Shown piece by piece: positions 1 to 39,494 of a stretch of 52,947 nucleotides of DNA (position 1 is the first letter of the stretch; each line of letters opens with the position of its first letter). The notes under the pieces were generated by a model. That model made no database searches. It was not told the DNA's origin and saw only the letters and a program-made list of their open reading frames with translations. The stretch spans positions 1-52,947 of the IMG/VR virus record IMGVR_UViG_3300025759_000132; one strand, written 5' to 3'. The position numbers and the translations under genes are program-made. The DNA is from a virus.

Positions 1-3000
1 TGCCTTGATACTCAGCTTCTTGTATTTCTGATTCTAAAAGATTTTCTTCAGAACACCAACAACCCCAATCGTCTTCTTCACAAGTTTGACCTGGAGTATC
101 GTCTTGATATTTCTTCTTCAGTTTAGTAGTACCTTCTTCACCAGCACCACCAGCTTCAGTGACTGATGGATGATAAGCAAATGAACCTTGTACTTGATTC
201 TGAGCAAACTCAGTAGCAAACATTGTGTCAGAAATACCTGCAGTAAATCCCTCGGTTAGTGATTCGGAAACTGTGTTAGCAGTTGGGCATTGACCACAAC
301 AATCCGGTGTACCACAGTTTTCATGTTCATCTTCTAAAAAAATTTCAAATGATTCGTTGATTCCTCTTTTTTTCTTCTCCTGTTCAATCCATTTCTTTGC
401 TTTTGGATTTATGATTGATTTTTTTGCAAACTTGCTCATCATTTTAAAAGCAGATTGAATTTCGATTTTAAAATTAGAATCAATGGAGTTATCAACAATC
501 TGGAAGTTTTGACCGAAGAATCGTTGGAACTTACCCATATTCTTTTGTACGTCTTTCCACATCTTTTCTACTGTATCATCAGGCAATGTTCTTTCTCTTT
601 GACGATTTCTTTCAAGAGCAGTTTCCATGTTTGTGTTGACAAAAATCATTCCAACATCATAACCAATGTCTTTAAGAATTTGCGCTTGCTTTTGAATCTT
701 ATCGTAGTCACGCCCTGTGCCGTCAACAACAACACCAAGTCTGCCCTTGAGAACAGTTTCTTGTCTCTTTGCAGTAAGTGTCTTTGCACCGCCACGAATT
801 TCTTGACCTTGTACAGAGAATATATCTTCTGGTGTTGTAGAAAGACCAGCCTTCTTCAATGCTCTTTCAAATGCGTCATCAGAGTTAATAACGACAAATC
901 CCATCGAAGCAAGACCTGTTTTTTTCACTACGAATGATTTACCAGAACCTGGTCCACCAGCAAGAAACACTGCTTTGAAAATAGCAGGGTCATTAACACC
1001 CTCTTCTAAAACTTCTTCATATTGAATTATTTTATCCGGAGATTTGAAATCTTTCTTACGCATAATTGTTTTATTAACAACTTCAAACTTACCGTTTTTG
1101 TAATTAATAACGACGGGTAGATTAAGATTGGTAGTCAAGTCTTTCAATACTACTTCTGTATCAGCATTTTGTTTGATGCTTTTACCCTTCTTGCGTTCAA
1201 TCTTCTTAAAAAACTTCTGAAGTTCAGCGACTTTTATTTCAGGATTGTTTCGTGGGTCATTGAGTCTATCTACAAAATGTTTTGTAAACTCAATATCGAT
1301 ATCATACTTTTGTAGGATACGGTCAGCAAATTTTTCTAATTGATCAATCTGTGTCTGATTGACCTTTTCTACTAAAAAACTTTCAAACGTCTTGTCAATC
1401 GATTCTTTTCTCATTGACTGTCTGTTCTTTGTTTGTGTATCGCGAGTACGAGCCATATCTAACATACGATCATGCTTTGCTTTATCGGCTTCTTTCTCTC
1501 TTGCGATACGAGCCTTTGCTGCTTTTTCAGCTTGTTGTTCTTTAACCTCTGGTTTCTTCTTTTCATTATCTTTGAAGATTGGTTTCTTACCAACCGCAGC
1601 ACGAGTCTTATCAAAATCTTTTAGTCTCTGTAATGGAGACTTTGCTTCGTTTGTTTCAACTTCTTCTTTTGGCACACAGTTAGGAACCGTCTTGCCGTTT
1701 TTCTTTTTGGTACCGACAGCAGTATATCCTGCCCAACAAGCATCTTTGAGTTTACCTGTTGGTTCTTTTACCTTTTCTGCTAGATCAGAATCAAGTTCCC
1801 ATGCCTTACCACCATTGATAAATGAGTTGACACGATTGAATCCAAGATCAGGATTATCCTCTCTTTCAAACACTTCAAGAATAACATCAAGAGGAATACC
1901 TGTCATATCAGATTTCTTTTTGAGACTCGTAAATGCCTTGAAAGACTCGTTGGTTTCTTTCTCATCAGCCTGCGACATGCGACGAAGTTTATCCCGCATC
2001 TTAGCAAACATAGATGGATCATCTTGTGTCGCATCAAGAAGACGATTCAATAGTTTAAGAATAAATGGTCGTAGTTTTGGATTCTGAAGTGACTTAGACC
2101 CACCCTTCAATGCACGAATGACAAGCATACGTTCTACAGGATCACGGAATGCTTGACGCAACATTGTAACGAGTTTGCTATTTGTACCTTCGTCCTCCTC
2201 TTCTTCCCAAATCCTTTGAATCGGTGCTTGTGTAGACTCAGAAAGCATAGATTCAAACCGAGCATCAATCGATTCTTTTTGTGGACCACTCCTTGCTTTC
2301 TTCAATCTTTCCATCTCAGCTTTACGAATCTTTGGCAACAGTCTCTTACTAATCTTTCCAACCATTGCCATTTTCTTTTGAATGATACGATCAACCGACA
2401 TTTTAGCGCCAGGAGATAAAGAAGCGTAGTTCTGACCTTGCTTTCCAGCAAACCGTTTGCGTAGAAGTTTAATCGCTGCTTTTCTCGATCTCTTCTCAAG
2501 ACGTGGTTTATCAGCCATTCTTTTCTTACGAATCTCTCTTTGACGTTTCATCCGTGGAGCAAGTCTCTTCATACGCCGACCAATAGCCATACGTTGAGAG
2601 ATATTCAATGGTCCTCTTTCATCTAACTGATCGAATACTTCTTCAAACTCTTCATTGATATCGATATCTTCATCAAGAGATTCTAAGTCTGTCATTTGAA
2701 TAAATGCGTCGAGTTCCTGATCTGTAAACTCAAATTCTTCATCATCGATTTCAATTGATTCTGATACACCCATAACTTTTCGTATCCTATTGTAAATGAT
2801 TGTCTTATCTCTTTTACTTAGTGTCCCCGGCAATCCACCTTCAAATGCAGACTGTTCTCCAGCCTGTGCTGCTGCTCTCATCTTTGATGCAGACATACCA
2901 GAAACATCATCCGAATCCGGATCCCTGTCGCCCGCTGAGACGACATCGATTTTATCGAATGTAAATTCTTTACCGTTGTATTTGTTGAGGAGAGTCTTGA

Positions 3001-3307
3001 ACTCTTGAACACGATCTGAACCGACTACAAGCACAACTTCAGAGTGCTTCATAGTCTCAAGTTCTTTCATCACTTCAATGATTGTACGTGCTGTAGATTT
3101 AGTAACACTTGGTCCGAATGCTTTTCGAGCATAACGAATTTTTGTGTTATAATCGAGAGGATTCTTTTTGGCGTCTTGCGAATGCGAAAGATAGACATGT
3201 GGTGTTGCACCACGTTTCTTCGCTTCTGCTTTGACCTTGTCAACCAACTTTTGGTGACCGATTGTGAGGGGATTCAATCTTCCCCACGTAACGACTGCTT
3301 TTGTCAT
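1..3307 (-). CDS. Multidomain nucleotidyltransferase/P-loop kinase protein, possible head-packaged polyprotein (3' end outside window)
   Basis: Open for 1,102 codons from ATG at 3307 to the window edge without a stop. Residues 1-170 look like a NadM/cytidylyltransferase-type domain: GRLNPLTIGH (9-18) holds the (T/H)xGH motif and GMSASKMR (137-144) resembles the ISTSxxR motif. Residues 230-340 are very rich in Lys/Arg. A CWAGY...VPNCVP block lies at 524-546. Residues 769-960 form a P-loop kinase domain with Walker A GGPGSGKS (784-791) and VDGTGRDYDK (861-870), similar to polynucleotide-kinase/AAA_33 proteins. Near-repeats KESIDARFESMLSE (344-357) and KESIDKTFESFLVE (634-647), plus a weaker NESFEIFLEDE (984-994), sit between domains and match the T4 prohead-protease rule [L/I]-x-E. 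A TATAAATA box lies 42 bases upstream. The domains are seen; head packaging and cleavage are inferred. Confidence 0.82.
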   Translation of the reverse strand, partial: MTKAVVTWGRLNPLTIGHQKLVDKVKAEAKKRGATPHVYLSHSQDAKKNPLDYNTKIRYARKAFGPSVTKSTARTIIEVMKELETMKHSEVVLVVGSDRVQEFKTLLNKYNGKEFTFDKIDVVSAGDRDPDSDDVSGMSASKMRAAAQAGEQSAFEGGLPGTLSKRDKTIIYNRIRKVMGVSESIEIDDEEFEFTDQELDAFIQMTDLESLDEDIDINEEFEEVFDQLDERGPLNISQRMAIGRRMKRLAPRMKRQREIRKKRMADKPRLEKRSRKAAIKLLRKRFAGKQGQNYASLSPGAKMSVDRIIQKKMAMVGKISKRLLPKIRKAEMERLKKARSGPQKESIDARFESMLSESTQAPIQRIWEEEEDEGTNSKLVTMLRQAFRDPVERMLVIRALKGGSKSLQNPKLRPFILKLLNRLLDATQDDPSMFAKMRDKLRRMSQADEKETNESFKAFTSLKKKSDMTGIPLDVILEVFEREDNPDLGFNRVNSFINGGKAWELDSDLAEKVKEPTGKLKDACWAGYTAVGTKKKNGKTVPNCVPKEEVETNEAKSPLQRLKDFDKTRAAVGKKPIFKDNEKKKPEVKEQQAEKAAKARIAREKEADKAKHDRMLDMARTRDTQTKNRQSMRKESIDKTFESFLVEKVNQTQIDQLEKFADRILQKYDIDIEFTKHFVDRLNDPRNNPEIKVAELQKFFKKIERKKGKSIKQNADTEVVLKDLTTNLNLPVVINYKNGKFEVVNKTIMRKKDFKSPDKIIQYEEVLEEGVNDPAIFKAVFLAGGPGSGKSFVVKKTGLASMGFVVINSDDAFERALKKAGLSTTPEDIFSVQGQEIRGGAKTLTAKRQETVLKGRLGVVVDGTGRDYDKIQKQAQILKDIGYDVGMIFVNTNMETALERNRQRERTLPDDTVEKMWKDVQKNMGKFQRFFGQNFQIVDNSIDSNFKIEIQSAFKMMSKFAKKSIINPKAKKWIEQEKKKRGINESFEIFLEDEHENCGTPDCCGQCPTANTVSESLTEGFTAGISDTMFATEFAQNQVQGSFAYHPSVTEAGGAGEEGTTKLKKKYQDDTPGQTCEEDDWGCWCSEENLLESEIQEAEYQG

Positions 3308-3348: not shown

Positions 3349-3356
3349 TATTTATA
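3349..3356 (-). promoter_or_regulatory. T4-late-type promoter TATAAATA
   Basis: Exact TATAAATA on the minus strand, 42 bases upstream of the 3307 start, in the short gap after the 409-residue gene. It is read by gp55-type late sigma factors in T4-like phages and implies late expression of the long polyprotein-like gene. Confidence 0.75.
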
Positions 3357-3363
3357 AAAAACT

Positions 3364-4593
3364 TTATTTTTGCCAACCTTTGATAATTTCTGGACTGAAG
3401 TTAGCGCGACTGAACTCAAGACGGTCAACCAACTTAACTGCACCACCTGCTAACTTATCTATTGCAACGAAACCTTCCTGGCGTGTAACCTGGAATCCCT
3501 TTGCTGTTCTTAGCAACGTATCGATCTCTTGTGTCTTATCAAACTGAGCGATTACCATACCCTTGAGTTCAACAAGAATCTTCATAAGACCAAACATTGC
3601 CTCTAACTGATCCTTATGCATAGCAACTTTATTGACCATATCATTACGCTTGGTAGTCCATTCGGCTTTGCCCTTTTCGGATTTTTTCTTATCGATTTCT
3701 TTTTGATACCAATCGTTGAGATACATCACAAGTTCTTTTGCCATCTTATCAGATGCAGGAAACTGCTTGCTTCCACGAACATAGGTATTGACAAACGTCA
3801 TTACTTTTTGGCGTAGGTCTGTGTCTCCAGTGATTGCACGGAATGCATCACCATCCATCTTTTGAAATAGTTTACCAGCACCTGATAACATCGTATCAAA
3901 CTGGTCTGACTCTTTCGGTGAGAATAGAGCCTTACCAGAGATATCACGATATGTAGCATCATCCATCCAGATTGTAGGAGACTTCTTAAACTTACCGACA
4001 ATACCCTTACCAAACGAAGCAGACATGTTCTGAATCGTTTTGCCTGTATATGTCGTATGCCAGACAACACCAATCTTCGCTTTTGCAATCTGTTTACCAA
4101 GAGCTGTATTGACAGGAATCGCATAAACGATTGTGTTGGGTTGGAACGTGTAATACTTCTGCCCCTGAATCGTCTCAACCTTCACGTCACCCTTCGTGAA
4201 CATCATATCGCCTTGATACACACCAGATTTGATACCGAGTTTAGAGAACTCAGCAAGAGCGATTGTAAACTTCTTAGCAAGTTCACCAGATAGTTCTGCT
4301 TTGATATCAGCATTCGTCTTATACATCTTAGGCGTCTTGGCAAACAAACCTTTCTTTGCAACAAAGAACTTACCGTCTGCAGGATCAACACCAGCGAAGA
4401 TAGCAGGAGCACCATCCCACTTGACTGTAATATCAACAGCAGAAGTGGCATTGCCCTTGAGCATGTCACGAAGGTCACGCAGAAAGTTAATCGCTTGACG
4501 TGTACCATCGACACCACCAAGGAACATTAATTCTTCCACATGCTGCATGTGGGTGTTCTTTTCTTCGACGATGAATGATTTGAGAGTTATCAT
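3364..4593 (-). CDS. KxDG nucleotidyltransferase (ligase-like) protein with capsid-targeting-like N-terminus
   Basis: 409 residues. KWDG (58-61) followed by FVAKKG resembles motif I (KxDG) of covalent nucleotidyltransferases (ATP-dependent DNA/RNA ligases, capping enzymes), where the Lys takes the AMP. GDMMFTKGD (128-136), FQPNTIVYAIP (150-160) and KIGVVWHTTYTG (173-184) are candidate motifs III, IIIa and IV. The N-terminus MITLKSFIVE resembles the T4 internal-protein capsid-targeting sequence (MKTYQEFI-x-E) and ends in an I-V-E prohead-protease site. The start ATG overlaps the stop of the upstream nuclease-like gene by one base (TAATG), so the two are probably translationally coupled and share the late promoter at 5676. 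The ligase-like role is inferred from motifs only; it may be a diverged relative with another acceptor. Confidence 0.75.
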   Translation of the reverse strand: MITLKSFIVEEKNTHMQHVEELMFLGGVDGTRQAINFLRDLRDMLKGNATSAVDITVKWDGAPAIFAGVDPADGKFFVAKKGLFAKTPKMYKTNADIKAELSGELAKKFTIALAEFSKLGIKSGVYQGDMMFTKGDVKVETIQGQKYYTFQPNTIVYAIPVNTALGKQIAKAKIGVVWHTTYTGKTIQNMSASFGKGIVGKFKKSPTIWMDDATYRDISGKALFSPKESDQFDTMLSGAGKLFQKMDGDAFRAITGDTDLRQKVMTFVNTYVRGSKQFPASDKMAKELVMYLNDWYQKEIDKKKSEKGKAEWTTKRNDMVNKVAMHKDQLEAMFGLMKILVELKGMVIAQFDKTQEIDTLLRTAKGFQVTRQEGFVAIDKLAGGAVKLVDRLEFSRANFSPEIIKGWQK

Positions 4594-5648
4594 TATTTAA
4601 ATTTTTCTGCTAATAATGTTGTTGCCATTTTACCTTTTTCTACATAATTTCTTACTGTAAGACCTATTTTTTGCCCTTTACTGTTGACTCGATTCCCCTC
4701 TAACTTTACTCTTAATTCTAATAAAGCATTTTTTTTATTTGACGTAGTTTCTATTATTTGTATTTTTGGTATTTTTGCACCAGAAATAACATTCGTAGAA
4801 CCTTCAGTATATACTGTTCCTAATTTCACCCCAGTTAATTTATTCTTTATATTTTCAAACTTATATATAGTGCTTTCGCTTTTGTTAAGTTGTACTAATG
4901 CAACATCTGGTTCATTTCTTGTAGCATGATACTTCATAAAATTAGCAATATTTTTTTTTAAAGTTTCTTGCGGCAAAGACGATATTTGTTTGTTTGCTTC
5001 TTTATAAGCAACAATTAATGCGCCAGCTACGTTTTTTTCTTCGCTTAATAACTTATTATATTTTGTCTCAATATTATTTGAAAATTTTACACCTAATGGT
5101 TCAAAAAGAGATTTCATAGAAGCAAAAGAACTTCCACCCACTTGGCCAAATTGTTTCACGTCCTGAGCTTTTAAACTAATTCCAACACCTGCTTGTTTCC
5201 CATCAATTATAAGATACAAATCAACTTTTGTTCCAGTTTGGTCTAAAAGACCTTCTGATTTAATTTCTATAACATTTTTTTGATTGTTGTTGTACATCAT
5301 ATCTGCCCATTCCATAACATTTACGCTATTTGAATATGCAATAGATGCATTAACTAGTTCTACAACATCTCTTTGAGAGTAAATTGAAGTATCTAAGAAT
5401 GCTCGGATATTAACTTCTGCTAAATTTACTTTACATATAACCGTATCTAATATTTTTGGATTTGCGTTTGGCGAATCAAACTCAGTTAAAGAAGTTAACC
5501 CACTGGTTTCTTTGACCGGCGGTTTTAATTTTTTAACAACATTAATTACATCATTAAACTGTATTCTTTTTGTTTTTGATAAAAATCTAGCAGTCATTGC
5601 CGCTGCTAAAATGCCTTCAGAAACATCGCCTCTATTAAATTTGGCCAT
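4593..5648 (-). CDS. PD-(D/E)XK-like nuclease candidate
   Basis: 351 residues, more AT-rich than its neighbours with many TTT/AAA/ATT codons, suggesting more recent acquisition. Near the N-terminus, RGDVSEGILAAAMTARF (6-22) looks like the helix carrying a conserved Glu in restriction-endonuclease-fold proteins. KVDLYLIIDG...GISLKAQDV (141-164) supplies an Asp (143) and a Ser-Leu-Lys (158-160) spaced like the D...(E/S)xK catalytic core, followed by QFGQVGG. A TATAAATA box lies just upstream, and the gene overlaps the next by one base. The nuclease fold is an inference from motif spacing and there is no direct sign of its substrate. I cannot exclude a non-catalytic relative. Confidence 0.7.
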   Translation of the reverse strand: MAKFNRGDVSEGILAAAMTARFLSKTKRIQFNDVINVVKKLKPPVKETSGLTSLTEFDSPNANPKILDTVICKVNLAEVNIRAFLDTSIYSQRDVVELVNASIAYSNSVNVMEWADMMYNNNQKNVIEIKSEGLLDQTGTKVDLYLIIDGKQAGVGISLKAQDVKQFGQVGGSSFASMKSLFEPLGVKFSNNIETKYNKLLSEEKNVAGALIVAYKEANKQISSLPQETLKKNIANFMKYHATRNEPDVALVQLNKSESTIYKFENIKNKLTGVKLGTVYTEGSTNVISGAKIPKIQIIETTSNKKNALLELRVKLEGNRVNSKGQKIGLTVRNYVEKGKMATTLLAEKFK

Positions 5649-5668: not shown

Positions 5669-6088
5669 TTACATATATTTATAATCTCCATCGTCTGTTG
5701 TGTAAACCACTTTTTCAATACCGAATGTAGCGATAGCACGAGCACAACCAGGGCATGGTTTAGAAAGACCATATATCCATTTTTTCGTCTCCACATGCAT
5801 TTTTGCACGAGCGATATACAACGTAGAACGAGCTATGTCATCTTGACTGACTCGCTTCAGTGCGTTCTTAATAGCATCGGTCTCGGCATGAAGGTATATC
5901 GCATCCTCGTTCTTAGCAAACTCTGCTTGAAACGGATGCGACTTCATCTGACTGAAACCAAATCCAATAATATTATTTTTTAAAACAAGACAAGCCGCAA
6001 GTCTCGAAGACTTGATCGGCTCTATGTCTTGAGCTAAACGAAACAGATTATTAATGATACGACGGTCGCGGTGATACGTCAAAGCCAT
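5669..6088 (-). CDS. Deoxycytidylate/cytidine deaminase family protein
   Basis: 139 residues. The zinc-dependent deaminase signature is complete: HAE (67-69; His is a zinc ligand, Glu the proton shuttle) and PCPGC (111-115; two Cys ligands). The length and spacing fit the dCMP deaminase branch, which makes dUMP for thymidylate synthesis from host dCMP. T4 gene cd does the same job, but this protein is shorter than T4 Cd (about 190 residues) and lacks an obvious dCTP-binding insert, so another cytidine-type substrate is possible. It belongs to the early cluster read from 7353 towards 5669. Its 5' end overlaps the 53-residue gene upstream. Confidence 0.85.
   Translation of the reverse strand: MALTYHRDRRIINNLFRLAQDIEPIKSSRLAACLVLKNNIIGFGFSQMKSHPFQAEFAKNEDAIYLHAETDAIKNALKRVSQDDIARSTLYIARAKMHVETKKWIYGLSKPCPGCARAIATFGIEKVVYTTDDGDYKYM
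5676..5683 (-). promoter_or_regulatory. T4-late-type promoter TATAAATA
   Basis: Exact TATAAATA 28 bases upstream of the 5648 start, inside the last codons of the dCMP deaminase gene. It would switch the nuclease-like and ligase-like pair on late, while the upstream small genes use the early promoter at 7325-7353. Confidence 0.7.
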
Positions 6089-35242: not shown

Positions 35243-36616
35243 TTACATTAAGTTGTCGATTTTGATTAGACGATAATATATATTTTTCTTAGCGAAAGCA
35301 ATCGCACCGTCTGCAGCAGTTGTAGCGAATGGGTTAGCAACCATCCCATAACGCGTCTTAAATCCGATTTTGGGTTGGAAGGTATTCTCACCAACTGCAC
35401 GAACCATCTGTAGTGGAACGTATGGGCAATAGAAGAGACCGGCGTCAAATGCGCTTGAACCCTTATAACCCATTGTGGCATACTGTGAACCAGAACCACT
35501 GGCGAAGTATGGATCAACATAAACCTTGATGCGACCATTCATGACACCAGCGAAGGTGTTGCCTGTATCGTCAACGTTTAGGTTGTTGCTGAGAGCAGGT
35601 GTGTAATCTAGAACACCAGCCATCTGAAGTGCGGAAGCAACATCAGAGGAAGTGATTAGAACGTTACCCTTGCCGCGACGAGTTGCTTTGGCAATGGCGT
35701 TTGCTTCACGCTCTAGTTGGAAGATTAGACCCTTGAAGCGTTCAACACTCCAACGACCGTTGGCGTCAACGTCTAGGTCGAAGGTACCGGAAACAGCAGT
35801 GTTTTCTGTTGCACCAGCGGTAGCAGTGTAGTTGATTGTACGAACAACTTCGCGGTTGATTTCAGCAAGAATCTCAGCGGAGAGAATATTGCTGAGTTCT
35901 GTTTCAGCGTCAAGACCATGGATTGCTTTAAGGTCTTGTGCTAGTTCCATTGTGTACTCAGCTTTGAGTGCACGTGACTTAGCAGTAACAGAAACCTTCT
36001 CGATTGAGAAAGCCATTTCTGAGAAGCTGTTGTTATCGGTATCACCAAGAGCTTCAGCAGTGCTTGTTGACATACCCTGGGAAACTGTATAACCAGAACC
36101 AGAAGCACGAGCAGTTGGATCAGCACCAGCTGTTGGTACACCAGCAGAATCAACACCAGTTGAAGCAACACCACCAACAGAGTTGTTAGCAGTTGCTGAG
36201 AAGCTGGATACTGCTTCGTTGTATAGAGCTTCGTCGCCACCCTGTGTAGCGTACTGAGGACGCATCGCAAAGATGAGACCAGTTGGACCAGTCATTGGCT
36301 GGACGCCGGCAACATCATAAGCGATTAGGTTTGGCATGGAACGACGGACGAGAGAGATAAGGACTGGATCGAAGATTTCGATTGGACCTGTACCCTGTGA
36401 GTCAGAAGCGCCAAATGCGTTTGTTGGAGCAGCTTCGCCGAGTAGGCTTGGCGCTTGATAACCACCAGAACCGTAAGCAGCTTCACGTGAAGCCTTCTCT
36501 TGGTTTTCTAGTAGAGTTGCTGTGACGGCACGACGATGAGGATCCTTAATACCTTCTAGGTCTGGATGCTCAAGGACTGGCTGCCACTTCTTGTTTAGTT
36601 CTTCAGATAGAAACAT
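35243..36616 (-). CDS. 23: Major capsid protein gp23
   Basis: 457 residues. MFLSEELNKKWQPVLEHPDL starts as in the family; the SPTGLIFAMR region and the C-terminal KNIYYRLIKIDNLM support it. QAPSLLGE (54-61) holds an L-G-E prohead-protease site; cleavage after E61 removes the propeptide, like E65 in T4. Forms hexamers of the prolate head. TATAAATA (36656-36663) and the terminator at 35194 frame a single-gene late unit. Confidence 0.95.
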   Translation of the reverse strand: MFLSEELNKKWQPVLEHPDLEGIKDPHRRAVTATLLENQEKASREAAYGSGGYQAPSLLGEAAPTNAFGASDSQGTGPIEIFDPVLISLVRRSMPNLIAYDVAGVQPMTGPTGLIFAMRPQYATQGGDEALYNEAVSSFSATANNSVGGVASTGVDSAGVPTAGADPTARASGSGYTVSQGMSTSTAEALGDTDNNSFSEMAFSIEKVSVTAKSRALKAEYTMELAQDLKAIHGLDAETELSNILSAEILAEINREVVRTINYTATAGATENTAVSGTFDLDVDANGRWSVERFKGLIFQLEREANAIAKATRRGKGNVLITSSDVASALQMAGVLDYTPALSNNLNVDDTGNTFAGVMNGRIKVYVDPYFASGSGSQYATMGYKGSSAFDAGLFYCPYVPLQMVRAVGENTFQPKIGFKTRYGMVANPFATTAADGAIAFAKKNIYYRLIKIDNLM

Positions 36617-37864: not shown

Positions 37865-38524
37865 TTAGAGTTGTTTCAAGAACTTCAAGAAAGCATTTAC
37901 CTTTGCTTCTTCAAGTTCAGTTTTTGAAACTTTTCGAATCTCTTTTTGAGTTTCTTCGATATACTGAGAAACCCAATTTCCATTAATATCTTGAATCCAG
38001 TCCACACCTTCCATCACACCCTCAACGAAAGCATTAGGAGCAGATGGATCTGCCACAATATCGGCAGCAGTTGCTAACTGAAAATCTGATTGAACTAAAT
38101 TGACACCCTTCTTATCTTTTTTGAGTGTGCCCATGCCACGGGAAGATACACCAAGTTTAGCACCTTCATCCATAAGATTTTTAACGATCTTACCATATGG
38201 AGTTTCGGTCATAATCTTAGCTTTACCCATAATATTATCACCATTACGATTTAATTCTTTAATCATGTGTGATACACGCTCAAGATTAATCGTGGGACCT
38301 TGGGGATGACCTAACTCACCATATGCACGGTTCTGTTCAACGTATTCTTTATTATAACGATTGACTTCTTTTTCTAATGTTTCCATAGGATACATCCGAC
38401 CATTACGGTTCTTGACGTTACCCTGCATGAAAATACCTTCAATGAAATAATTCTTACCACCGTCTTCTTTTGCTTCGGTGACAAATTCTACATCAGATTC
38501 TACCATTTCGGTGATAAGTTTCAT
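37865..38524 (-). CDS. 21: Prohead protease gp21
   Basis: 219 residues. Catalytic His in GELGHP (H73) and Ser in LGVSSRG (S127/S128) as in the herpes-assemblin-like phage proteases. N-terminus MKLITEMVES carries L-I-T-E and M-V-E, possible self-cleavage sites. Cuts prohead proteins at [L/I]-x-E. It is the presumed processor of the polyprotein-like 1-3307 gene and the 409-residue ligase-like protein. Confidence 0.93.
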   Translation of the reverse strand: MKLITEMVESDVEFVTEAKEDGGKNYFIEGIFMQGNVKNRNGRMYPMETLEKEVNRYNKEYVEQNRAYGELGHPQGPTINLERVSHMIKELNRNGDNIMGKAKIMTETPYGKIVKNLMDEGAKLGVSSRGMGTLKKDKKGVNLVQSDFQLATAADIVADPSAPNAFVEGVMEGVDWIQDINGNWVSQYIEETQKEIRKVSKTELEEAKVNAFLKFLKQL

Positions 38525-38927: not shown

Positions 38928-39494
38928 TCAAACACTCTTAGCGAATTTTACCATCGCTTCAAAAGACTGCTTGTCTTTCATTGCTTCGGCTTCCATTCGT
39001 TTTTTATTAGAAGGATTTAGTTGATCGAAAGCATCATTCAATGCACGAGCATCTGATTCATTTACTTTTACTGTTTCACCAGACTTGAGTTTTAATGAAC
39101 CTTTTTTGAACGCTTCATCAACAAACTCAACTTCTTCTTTAATCTTTGGCATTTTAGTGTCGCCATCAGACTTATCAGCAGCACGTTTAGATGAACCACC
39201 ATAACCACCCATCTTCATAAACTTAGCGTATGTCTTATCGACTTTCTGCCCTGCTTTTTCATGACCGTCATGGTCTTCGCCAGAGTCACTCTTTGGACCT
39301 TTGCGGTCGCCAGTGTGTTGATGTGGTTCAGCAACGGGATGTTCTTTCTTATCGACTGTATGAGAATTAGCGAAATCTTCTTCGCCTTTTGAACGAGGTT
39401 TATACCCCTTCACTTCTTTCTCATCGTCTTTCTTTTGTTTCTGGTCGCTAGCAGGAGAGCCAACAGACTCAACTAAGTTTTTAAACCTCTTCAT
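38928..39494 (-). CDS. Prohead core/internal protein with capsid-targeting-like N-terminus
   Basis: 188 residues, highly charged and probably disordered (KQKKDDEKEVKGYKPRSKGE and a His/Asp/Lys-rich middle). N-terminus MKRFKNLVES has the L-V-E protease site and resembles the T4 internal-protein targeting sequence. A second IKEEVEFVDEAF lies later. Located between gp21 and the gp67/68-position gene, as T4 core proteins are. Expected to be packaged and trimmed by gp21. Confidence 0.6.
   Translation of the reverse strand: MKRFKNLVESVGSPASDQKQKKDDEKEVKGYKPRSKGEEDFANSHTVDKKEHPVAEPHQHTGDRKGPKSDSGEDHDGHEKAGQKVDKTYAKFMKMGGYGGSSKRAADKSDGDTKMPKIKEEVEFVDEAFKKGSLKLKSGETVKVNESDARALNDAFDQLNPSNKKRMEAEAMKDKQSFEAMVKFAKSV

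Follow-up and report, generated by a model that had tools for sequence, protein, structure and literature searches.

The giant gene and its modules

The 52,947-base viral fragment IMGVR_UViG_3300025759_000132 from IMG/VR, which was studied whole and is called the window here, raises the question of what becomes of the very large multidomain protein encoded at one of its ends: does it work as a single enzyme, or is it a precursor that the phage packages into its head and divides there? We favour, with moderate confidence, the reading that the product of this giant open reading frame (ORF) is made late and directed to the capsid as a precursor of several enzymes, which is split by the head maturation protease gp21 and ejected with the DNA. 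An earlier note on this sequence had described one minus-strand frame of at least 1,102 codons, and the frame is indeed uninterrupted from 3307 to 2, where it leaves the contig at its end. The full-length relatives have 1,304 (L004 and L005) and 1,265 (L003) amino acids, and in them an EAEYQG module comes last. Pfam and PHROGs scans found a HIGH-type nucleotidyltransferase at the start of the giant ORF and a zeta-toxin/AAA_33 P-loop kinase near its end, and profiles made in this analysis revealed the basic helical module, M3, D5824, CWAGY...VPNCVP and M6, as follows.

2-3307, minus strand: giant multidomain ORF of at least 1,102 amino acids, incomplete at the contig end (from the ORF reading and the full-length relatives)
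2759-3307, minus strand: HIGH-superfamily nucleotidyltransferase module, residues 1-183 (Pfam/PHROGs; T4-GC190, its homologue in cyanophage S-SM1, has been detected in virions)
2300-2608, minus strand: basic helical module, residues 234-336, a free gene in many relatives
1664-2194, minus strand: small modules M3 (residues 372-451), D5824 (462-512) and CWAGY...VPNCVP (522-548)
1043-1363, minus strand: module M6 (FTxHFxDRxND...KTIMRKKxF), which matches no known family and is a free gene in some relatives
374-1000, minus strand: P-loop kinase module, residues 770-978, whose closest solved folds are Clostridium thermocellum polynucleotide kinase and T4 polynucleotide kinase (PNK)

The first domain matches CTP_transf_like and the PHROG "cytidyltransferase" with 21 bits, which is at the cut-off; the nucleotidyltransferase of the earlier note is retained at this level, while its label "NadM-like" was not adopted because nothing past the superfamily was shown. 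In the AlphaFold2 model of the giant protein, the nucleotidyltransferase, basic, D5824 and kinase modules are confident, with low-confidence linkers between them. A Foldseek search with the kinase model ranked 4gp6/4gp7 (C. thermocellum polynucleotide kinase) best, with TMt 0.70-0.71, followed by T4 PNK (1ly1, TMt 0.66), and adenylate kinases came next; the match to polynucleotide kinase by sequence profile is weaker than the fold match. As modelled, the kinase module is a P-loop fold closest to PNK, and we describe it as polynucleotide-kinase-like. Searches of PDB sequences with M6, the nucleotidyltransferase and DUF6267 (the product of an adjacent gene, see below) gave nothing significant. 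M6 had been suspected from its H..R pattern to be a RelE/BECR-type RNase, but no match was found, and the model is poor there (predicted local distance difference test score, pLDDT, ~50). A Cys-rich CGTPDCCGQC-type knot at 287-316 (minus strand), which could bind metal, is common to several cargo ORFs, including those of L062 and L018 near the starts of kinase ORFs. L082:4755-7449 (S-MbCM100) holds a cytidyltransferase and neighbour annotated NrdB, and other records say ribonucleotide reductase; these are apparent annotation errors.

Cleavage-type sites lie between the modules

The presumed processing enzyme and its expected type of site are both encoded in the window, as the earlier note had stated for gp21 and for an L-G-E site in gp23 (35243-36616, PF07068), and a T4-type late promoter candidate precedes the giant ORF where that note had placed one.

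37865-38524, minus strand: gp21 head maturation protease (Peptidase_S77; PF03420, E=1e-36)
36434-36442, minus strand: gp23 cleavage-type site LGE/A, residues 59-61 (SLLGE/AAPTN, residues 57-66; the slash marks the cut)
3349-3356, minus strand: TATAAATA, candidate late promoter of the T4 type, which lies 42 bases ahead of the start codon of the giant ORF

The promoter motif occurs 17 times in the window versus 4.5 expected (0/100 shuffles), and 16 of the 17 copies are on the coding (minus) strand. Within the giant ORF, E230, E357, E647 and E769 are each the last residue of an [L/I]-x-E motif; all of these motifs lie between modules, and some resemble the T4 capsid-targeting sequence (CTS).

2618-2647, minus strand: predicted gp21-type site FEEVFDQLDE/R (then GPL), E230, directly before the basic module; weak here
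2237-2278, minus strand: internal CTS-like site KESIDARFESMLSE/S, residues 344-357, E357, at the beginning of the low-confidence stretch 357-374
1367-1408, minus strand: internal CTS-like site KESIDKTFESFLVE/K, residues 634-647, E647, within the low-confidence stretch 641-650
1001-1030, minus strand: internal CTS-like site IIQYEEVLEE/GVNDP, E769, directly before the kinase, whose border motif is common to every kinase examined
326-358, minus strand: NESFEIFLEDE, residues 984-994, CTS-like but with D at the position of the cleavage E

The two linkers ending at E357 and E647 were reported correctly by the earlier note, but its list overlooked E230 and E769, and its third entry, NESFEIFLEDE, ends in L-E-D-E, which does not fit [L/I]-x-E. 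The counterparts of the weak E230 site in relatives are FEEYLEE, FEMFLEE or FEDMLIE. In the model, E357 and E647 are inside stretches with pLDDT<50, and E769 is just past one (745-767). The F-E-x-[FYMLV]-[LIM]-x-E-type core matches the window protein three times versus 0.06 expected from block shuffles (0/500 reached three), which hold composition constant but not all features of acidic linkers, and none of the matches is within a module. The same is true of the window's clade (the window, L003, L004 and L007), whose proteins have 3-4 core motifs each versus ~0.1 expected, again none within a module.

The motifs recur at module borders in relatives

A survey of 240 loci gave 353 non-redundant module ORFs built from ten modules, with about 40 architectures, among which single-module genes are the most frequent. 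The modules are interchangeable, and multiple domains are joined in one polypeptide with mosaic shuffling. For example, the kinase has a gene of its own in Pelagibacter phage HTVC008M, starting MIPFILKEG/LYDPGIFK, as has the basic module in Methylophilales phage Melnitz, starting MKKFSELTSELIERKAV, while the window reads YEEVLEEGVNDPAIFK and FDQLDERGPLNISQR at the matching kinase and basic-module borders, respectively. Melnitz also has a fused ORF of 650 residues in which the nucleotidyltransferase, CWAGY, D5824 and EAEYQG follow one another. Free kinases among 79 viral contigs start, for instance, with MLSFKTYLEE/GVNDP, MFTFLEYLEE/GINDP or MIRFKKFISE/GVNDP, and the kinase border within the giant ORF reads AFESYLEE/GINDP in L003 and AFESYLKE/GVNDP in L004. 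A segment with a terminal cleavage-type motif stands before M6 in the window but before the kinase in L003 and L004, so the site moves together with its segment, and in either place a module starts where it ends. A tree of the kinases requires nine changes between the free and internal states, at least three of which are forced by well-supported branches. Linkers of many relatives, such as L083:6363-8315, also have a recurrent TKPSKHTKKFKxMFGE (or MYGE, MYDE) before several modules.

We counted [LIMVF]-x-E within -10 to +4 of each module start and compared the observed with the shuffled numbers. All 68 free kinases (32.6 in shuffles) and all 21 internal ones (6.9) have the motif at this border, as do 46 of 49 internal borders of D5824 (14.9), 31/40 of M6 (10.5), 27/29 of the basic module (13.3) and 16/24 of CWAGY (3.3). 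One outcome that would have refuted the idea of the earlier note, absence of the motif from homologues, did not occur, as the motif is found in them at module borders far above the shuffled expectation. A position-specific scoring matrix made from the N-termini of free modules, with positions 2-3 included, gave only modest internal enrichment (10 versus 3.3 at score 8) and was dropped for the T4 geometry and the border tests, because positions 2-3 reflect the protein start; random windows proved a poor null for internal sites.

Every kinase examined has the motif, whether free or fused, as would also be expected if [hydrophobic]-x-E-G belonged intrinsically to the N-terminus of the kinase fold, and likewise of the other modules, and had nothing to do with gp21. 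We consider this very improbable, as position x varies freely (E, D, N, T, K, S, M, Q, A, G), the same pattern stands ahead of unrelated modules, and after a cut GVNDPAIFK would remain ahead of the first strand of the P-loop fold.

The targeting pattern picks out known head proteins in T4 and S-SM1

Published T4 CTS genetics assigns positions 4 and 7 to targeting and positions 8 and 10 to processing (PMC9026906), from which we set the pattern M..[FYLIM]..[FYLIMHV][LIM].E. In T4 it selects four of 632 ORF segments, namely IPII, IPIII and gp24, as identified by reading the sequences, and one unidentified 69-residue ORF; gp21 removes the 10-residue N-terminal peptide of T4 gp24 (PMC9958956). In the Synechococcus phage S-SM1 it selects one of 815, the cytidyltransferase MKKFSAFLNEAERSF, whose gene is T4-GC190, the free-standing homologue of the nucleotidyltransferase module, and according to Sullivan et al. 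(PMC3037559) T4-GC190 was found by mass spectrometry in purified S-SM1 virions. Its predicted mature N-terminus is AERSFAAK, after MKKFSAFLNE. Two of 639 are selected in Melnitz, one being the first gene of the corresponding operon, and in the window the matches are one doubtful short ORF and MITLKSFIVE, the start of the adjacent DUF6267 gene. Over all loci it matches 201 of 2,282 ORFs at the first residue versus 14 of 12,105 internal methionines. Since the pattern picks IPII, IPIII, gp24 and one S-SM1 protein supported by mass spectrometry, it can be used to predict head-packaged proteins from sequence in the many marine T4-like phages with "hypothetical" genes. Several ORFs of the neighbourhoods that are not modules start with a strict T4-type decapeptide (L168:389-928, L240:4351-4776, L231:1923-2528, L062:1781-3715 and L222:415-1710); such ORFs include weakly PARP-like (E=0.16), ParB-like and HAD-phosphatase-like ones and several unknown proteins, and are candidates for further head cargo.

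These observations bear on whether the giant protein is instead an ordinary late intracellular multifunctional enzyme of nucleotide, NAD or RNA metabolism, absent from the virion, whose motifs are acidic linker. LxE is a short motif, no virion detection of any fused form was found in the literature, and the RaK2 nucleotidyltransferase homologue is a bare 178-residue gene, apparently outside the structural clusters reported for that phage. However, composition-preserving shuffles fail to yield the border positions, the N-terminal decapeptides of free modules obey the T4 geometry, and the decapeptide-bearing homologue of S-SM1 is virion-borne; we therefore hold this explanation to be rather improbable.

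Points against cleavage of the fused protein

Several results weigh against our favoured reading of a gp21-split precursor. The N-terminal targeting decapeptide (hydrophobic residues at 4 and 7, I/L at 8, E at 10) is absent from the giant ORF of the window, which starts MTKAVVTWGRLN; both this protein and that of L003 open straight into the enzyme (MTKAVVTWGR and MSKAVITWGR), so targeting would have to act from the internal copies, for which the literature surveyed holds no precedent. Full internal decapeptides are common only in the window's own clade, and the full CTS geometry, though it exceeds shuffles, is found at a minority of internal borders (kinase 3/21, M6 5/40, CWAGY 3/24, basic 8/29 and D5824 6/49). 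The EAEYQG module shows no enrichment of the border motif, and HTVC008M has no strict CTS in the corresponding operon. The E-G ahead of the kinase could belong to the kinase domain itself, and the protein detected in virions is a free-standing homologue, not a fused form.

Some of the same facts would suit a giant protein packaged uncut as one multi-enzyme protein, whose internal [L/I]-x-E motifs would then be remnants of targeting peptides that stood at the N-termini of the modules before fusion. Full decapeptides have decayed at most internal positions, fusion and fission happened several times, and the fused genes of relatives may hold a single, N-terminal CTS (e.g. MKKFSEIIE in Melnitz). 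On the other hand, the minimal L-x-E half persists at nearly all borders, even where the targeting half is no longer intact, which is what selection on cleavage and not on targeting would lead to; moreover, proteins of the window's clade have several complete motifs, none of them N-terminal. We thus judge packaging without cleavage to be unlikely, though less so than an intracellular enzyme.

Adjoining genes

Two genes lie directly upstream of the giant ORF.

3364-4593, minus strand: DUF6267 gene, in the same operon as the giant ORF, with the N-terminal CTS MITLKSFIVE/E, which is disordered in the model
4593-5648, minus strand: neighbouring gene of PHROG 3560, function not assigned, with no CTS here and with TATAAATA upstream at 5676-5683

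DUF6267 has motifs like those of the ligase superfamily (KWDGAPA, EGFVAID and KLVDR, which we liken to ligase motifs I, IV and V), and its residues K57-W-D-G60, E372-G373 and K386/R390 are invariant among 17-18 sequences. DNA and RNA ligases rank first in its Foldseek search, but only at E>=0.15, which is not significant. The PHROG 3560 gene has an E...D...SLK arrangement and might encode a PD-(D/E)XK nuclease; an unrelated ORF with MKTFKAYLEE occupies its place in L003. Slightly upstream of gp21, the ORF at 38928-39494 (minus strand) starts MKRFKNLVES, is highly charged and is possibly a core protein like gp67/gp68.

Proposed mechanism and comparison with known systems

Judged from sequence, the fused protein of our favoured reading is probably packaged, cleaved and ejected, in the following way. 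Late transcription would yield one giant precursor, which would join the prohead core through T4-like capsid-targeting decapeptides, internal here (around E357, E647 and E769) and often N-terminal in relatives. During head maturation gp21 would cut after the E of [L/I/M/V]-x-E at the module borders. Pfam and PHROGs scans of the available 1,102 residues found no peptidase family in the giant ORF, so the cut would come in trans from gp21. Hence the earlier note's "self-separating" does not hold for its head-packaged cargo, while separation at gp21 sites gains from the border motifs, the free CTS-bearing genes and the virion homologue of S-SM1. The predicted products are a nucleotidyltransferase (residues 1-230, 25.9 kDa), a very basic helical protein (231-357, 14.8 kDa, predicted isoelectric point 11.9), a fragment (358-647, 33.2 kDa), M6 (648-769, 14.5 kDa) and a polynucleotide-kinase-like enzyme (770 to the end), and the new N-termini would be R231, S358, K648 and G770. 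The freed enzymes would stay in the head and leave with the DNA, alongside the separately encoded, CTS-bearing DUF6267 ligase-like protein.

A role of the ejected cargo in repairing nucleic-acid ends cut by host defences is speculative, being a guess from the PNK-like kinase fold and the non-significant ligase likeness of DUF6267. Only tentatively, then, do we put forward the whole scheme, in which a marine T4-like phage would make a polyprotein of capsid-targeted enzymes, split by gp21 at CTS-like linkers and ejected with the ligase-like DUF6267 protein, that repairs nuclease-cut nucleic acids before phage gene expression; on present evidence we find it doubtful.

By analogy, the giant ORF system may be a variation on the T4 internal-protein system that comes near the polyvalent proteins in logic. 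With the T4 internal proteins (IPI, IPII, IPIII and Alt) it shares the decapeptide with hydrophobic residues at 4, 7 and 8 and E at 10, late expression, gp21 and, in S-SM1, a virion-borne free-standing homologue. However, each T4 protein has an ORF to itself and its CTS at the N-terminus, whereas here enzyme modules are fused with CTS-like sites inside, and the cargo would be a modular enzyme repertoire; internal proteins 1-3 of T4 are injected and inhibit type IV restriction enzymes (PMC12373910). Polyvalent proteins (Iyer et al. 2017, PMC5512222), such as DdrB of P1, are likewise large, modular and multi-enzyme with mosaic domain shuffling, are thought to be injected with the DNA and have been likened to viral polyproteins (PMC5512222). 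Those with processing, which is present in many, have an embedded peptidase, whereas none was found in the giant ORF, whose predicted cutter is a T4-type prohead protease and whose predicted cut sites resemble targeting peptides. Several gp21 cuts within one prohead-core polypeptide are also known from the T4 scaffold proteins gp22, gp67 and gp68, but those cuts release mostly small peptides, which exit the head, whereas the products predicted here are folded enzyme domains. The head ejection proteins of phiKZ and SPN3US are also packaged in the head, cut after E by a gp21-related protease and then ejected; in the sources consulted, propeptides are removed from single proteins, and no string of enzymes with sites between catalytic modules is described.

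Our search of the open-access literature returned no report of an enzyme polyprotein cut by gp21. If our favoured reading is true, the T4 head protease would also process a polyprotein and so supply a set of enzymes for injection; elsewhere this strategy is known from RNA viruses and from those phage polyvalent proteins that contain a peptidase themselves. Unknown genes that are common in ocean viruses would then become a testable list of proteins active in the first minutes of infection.

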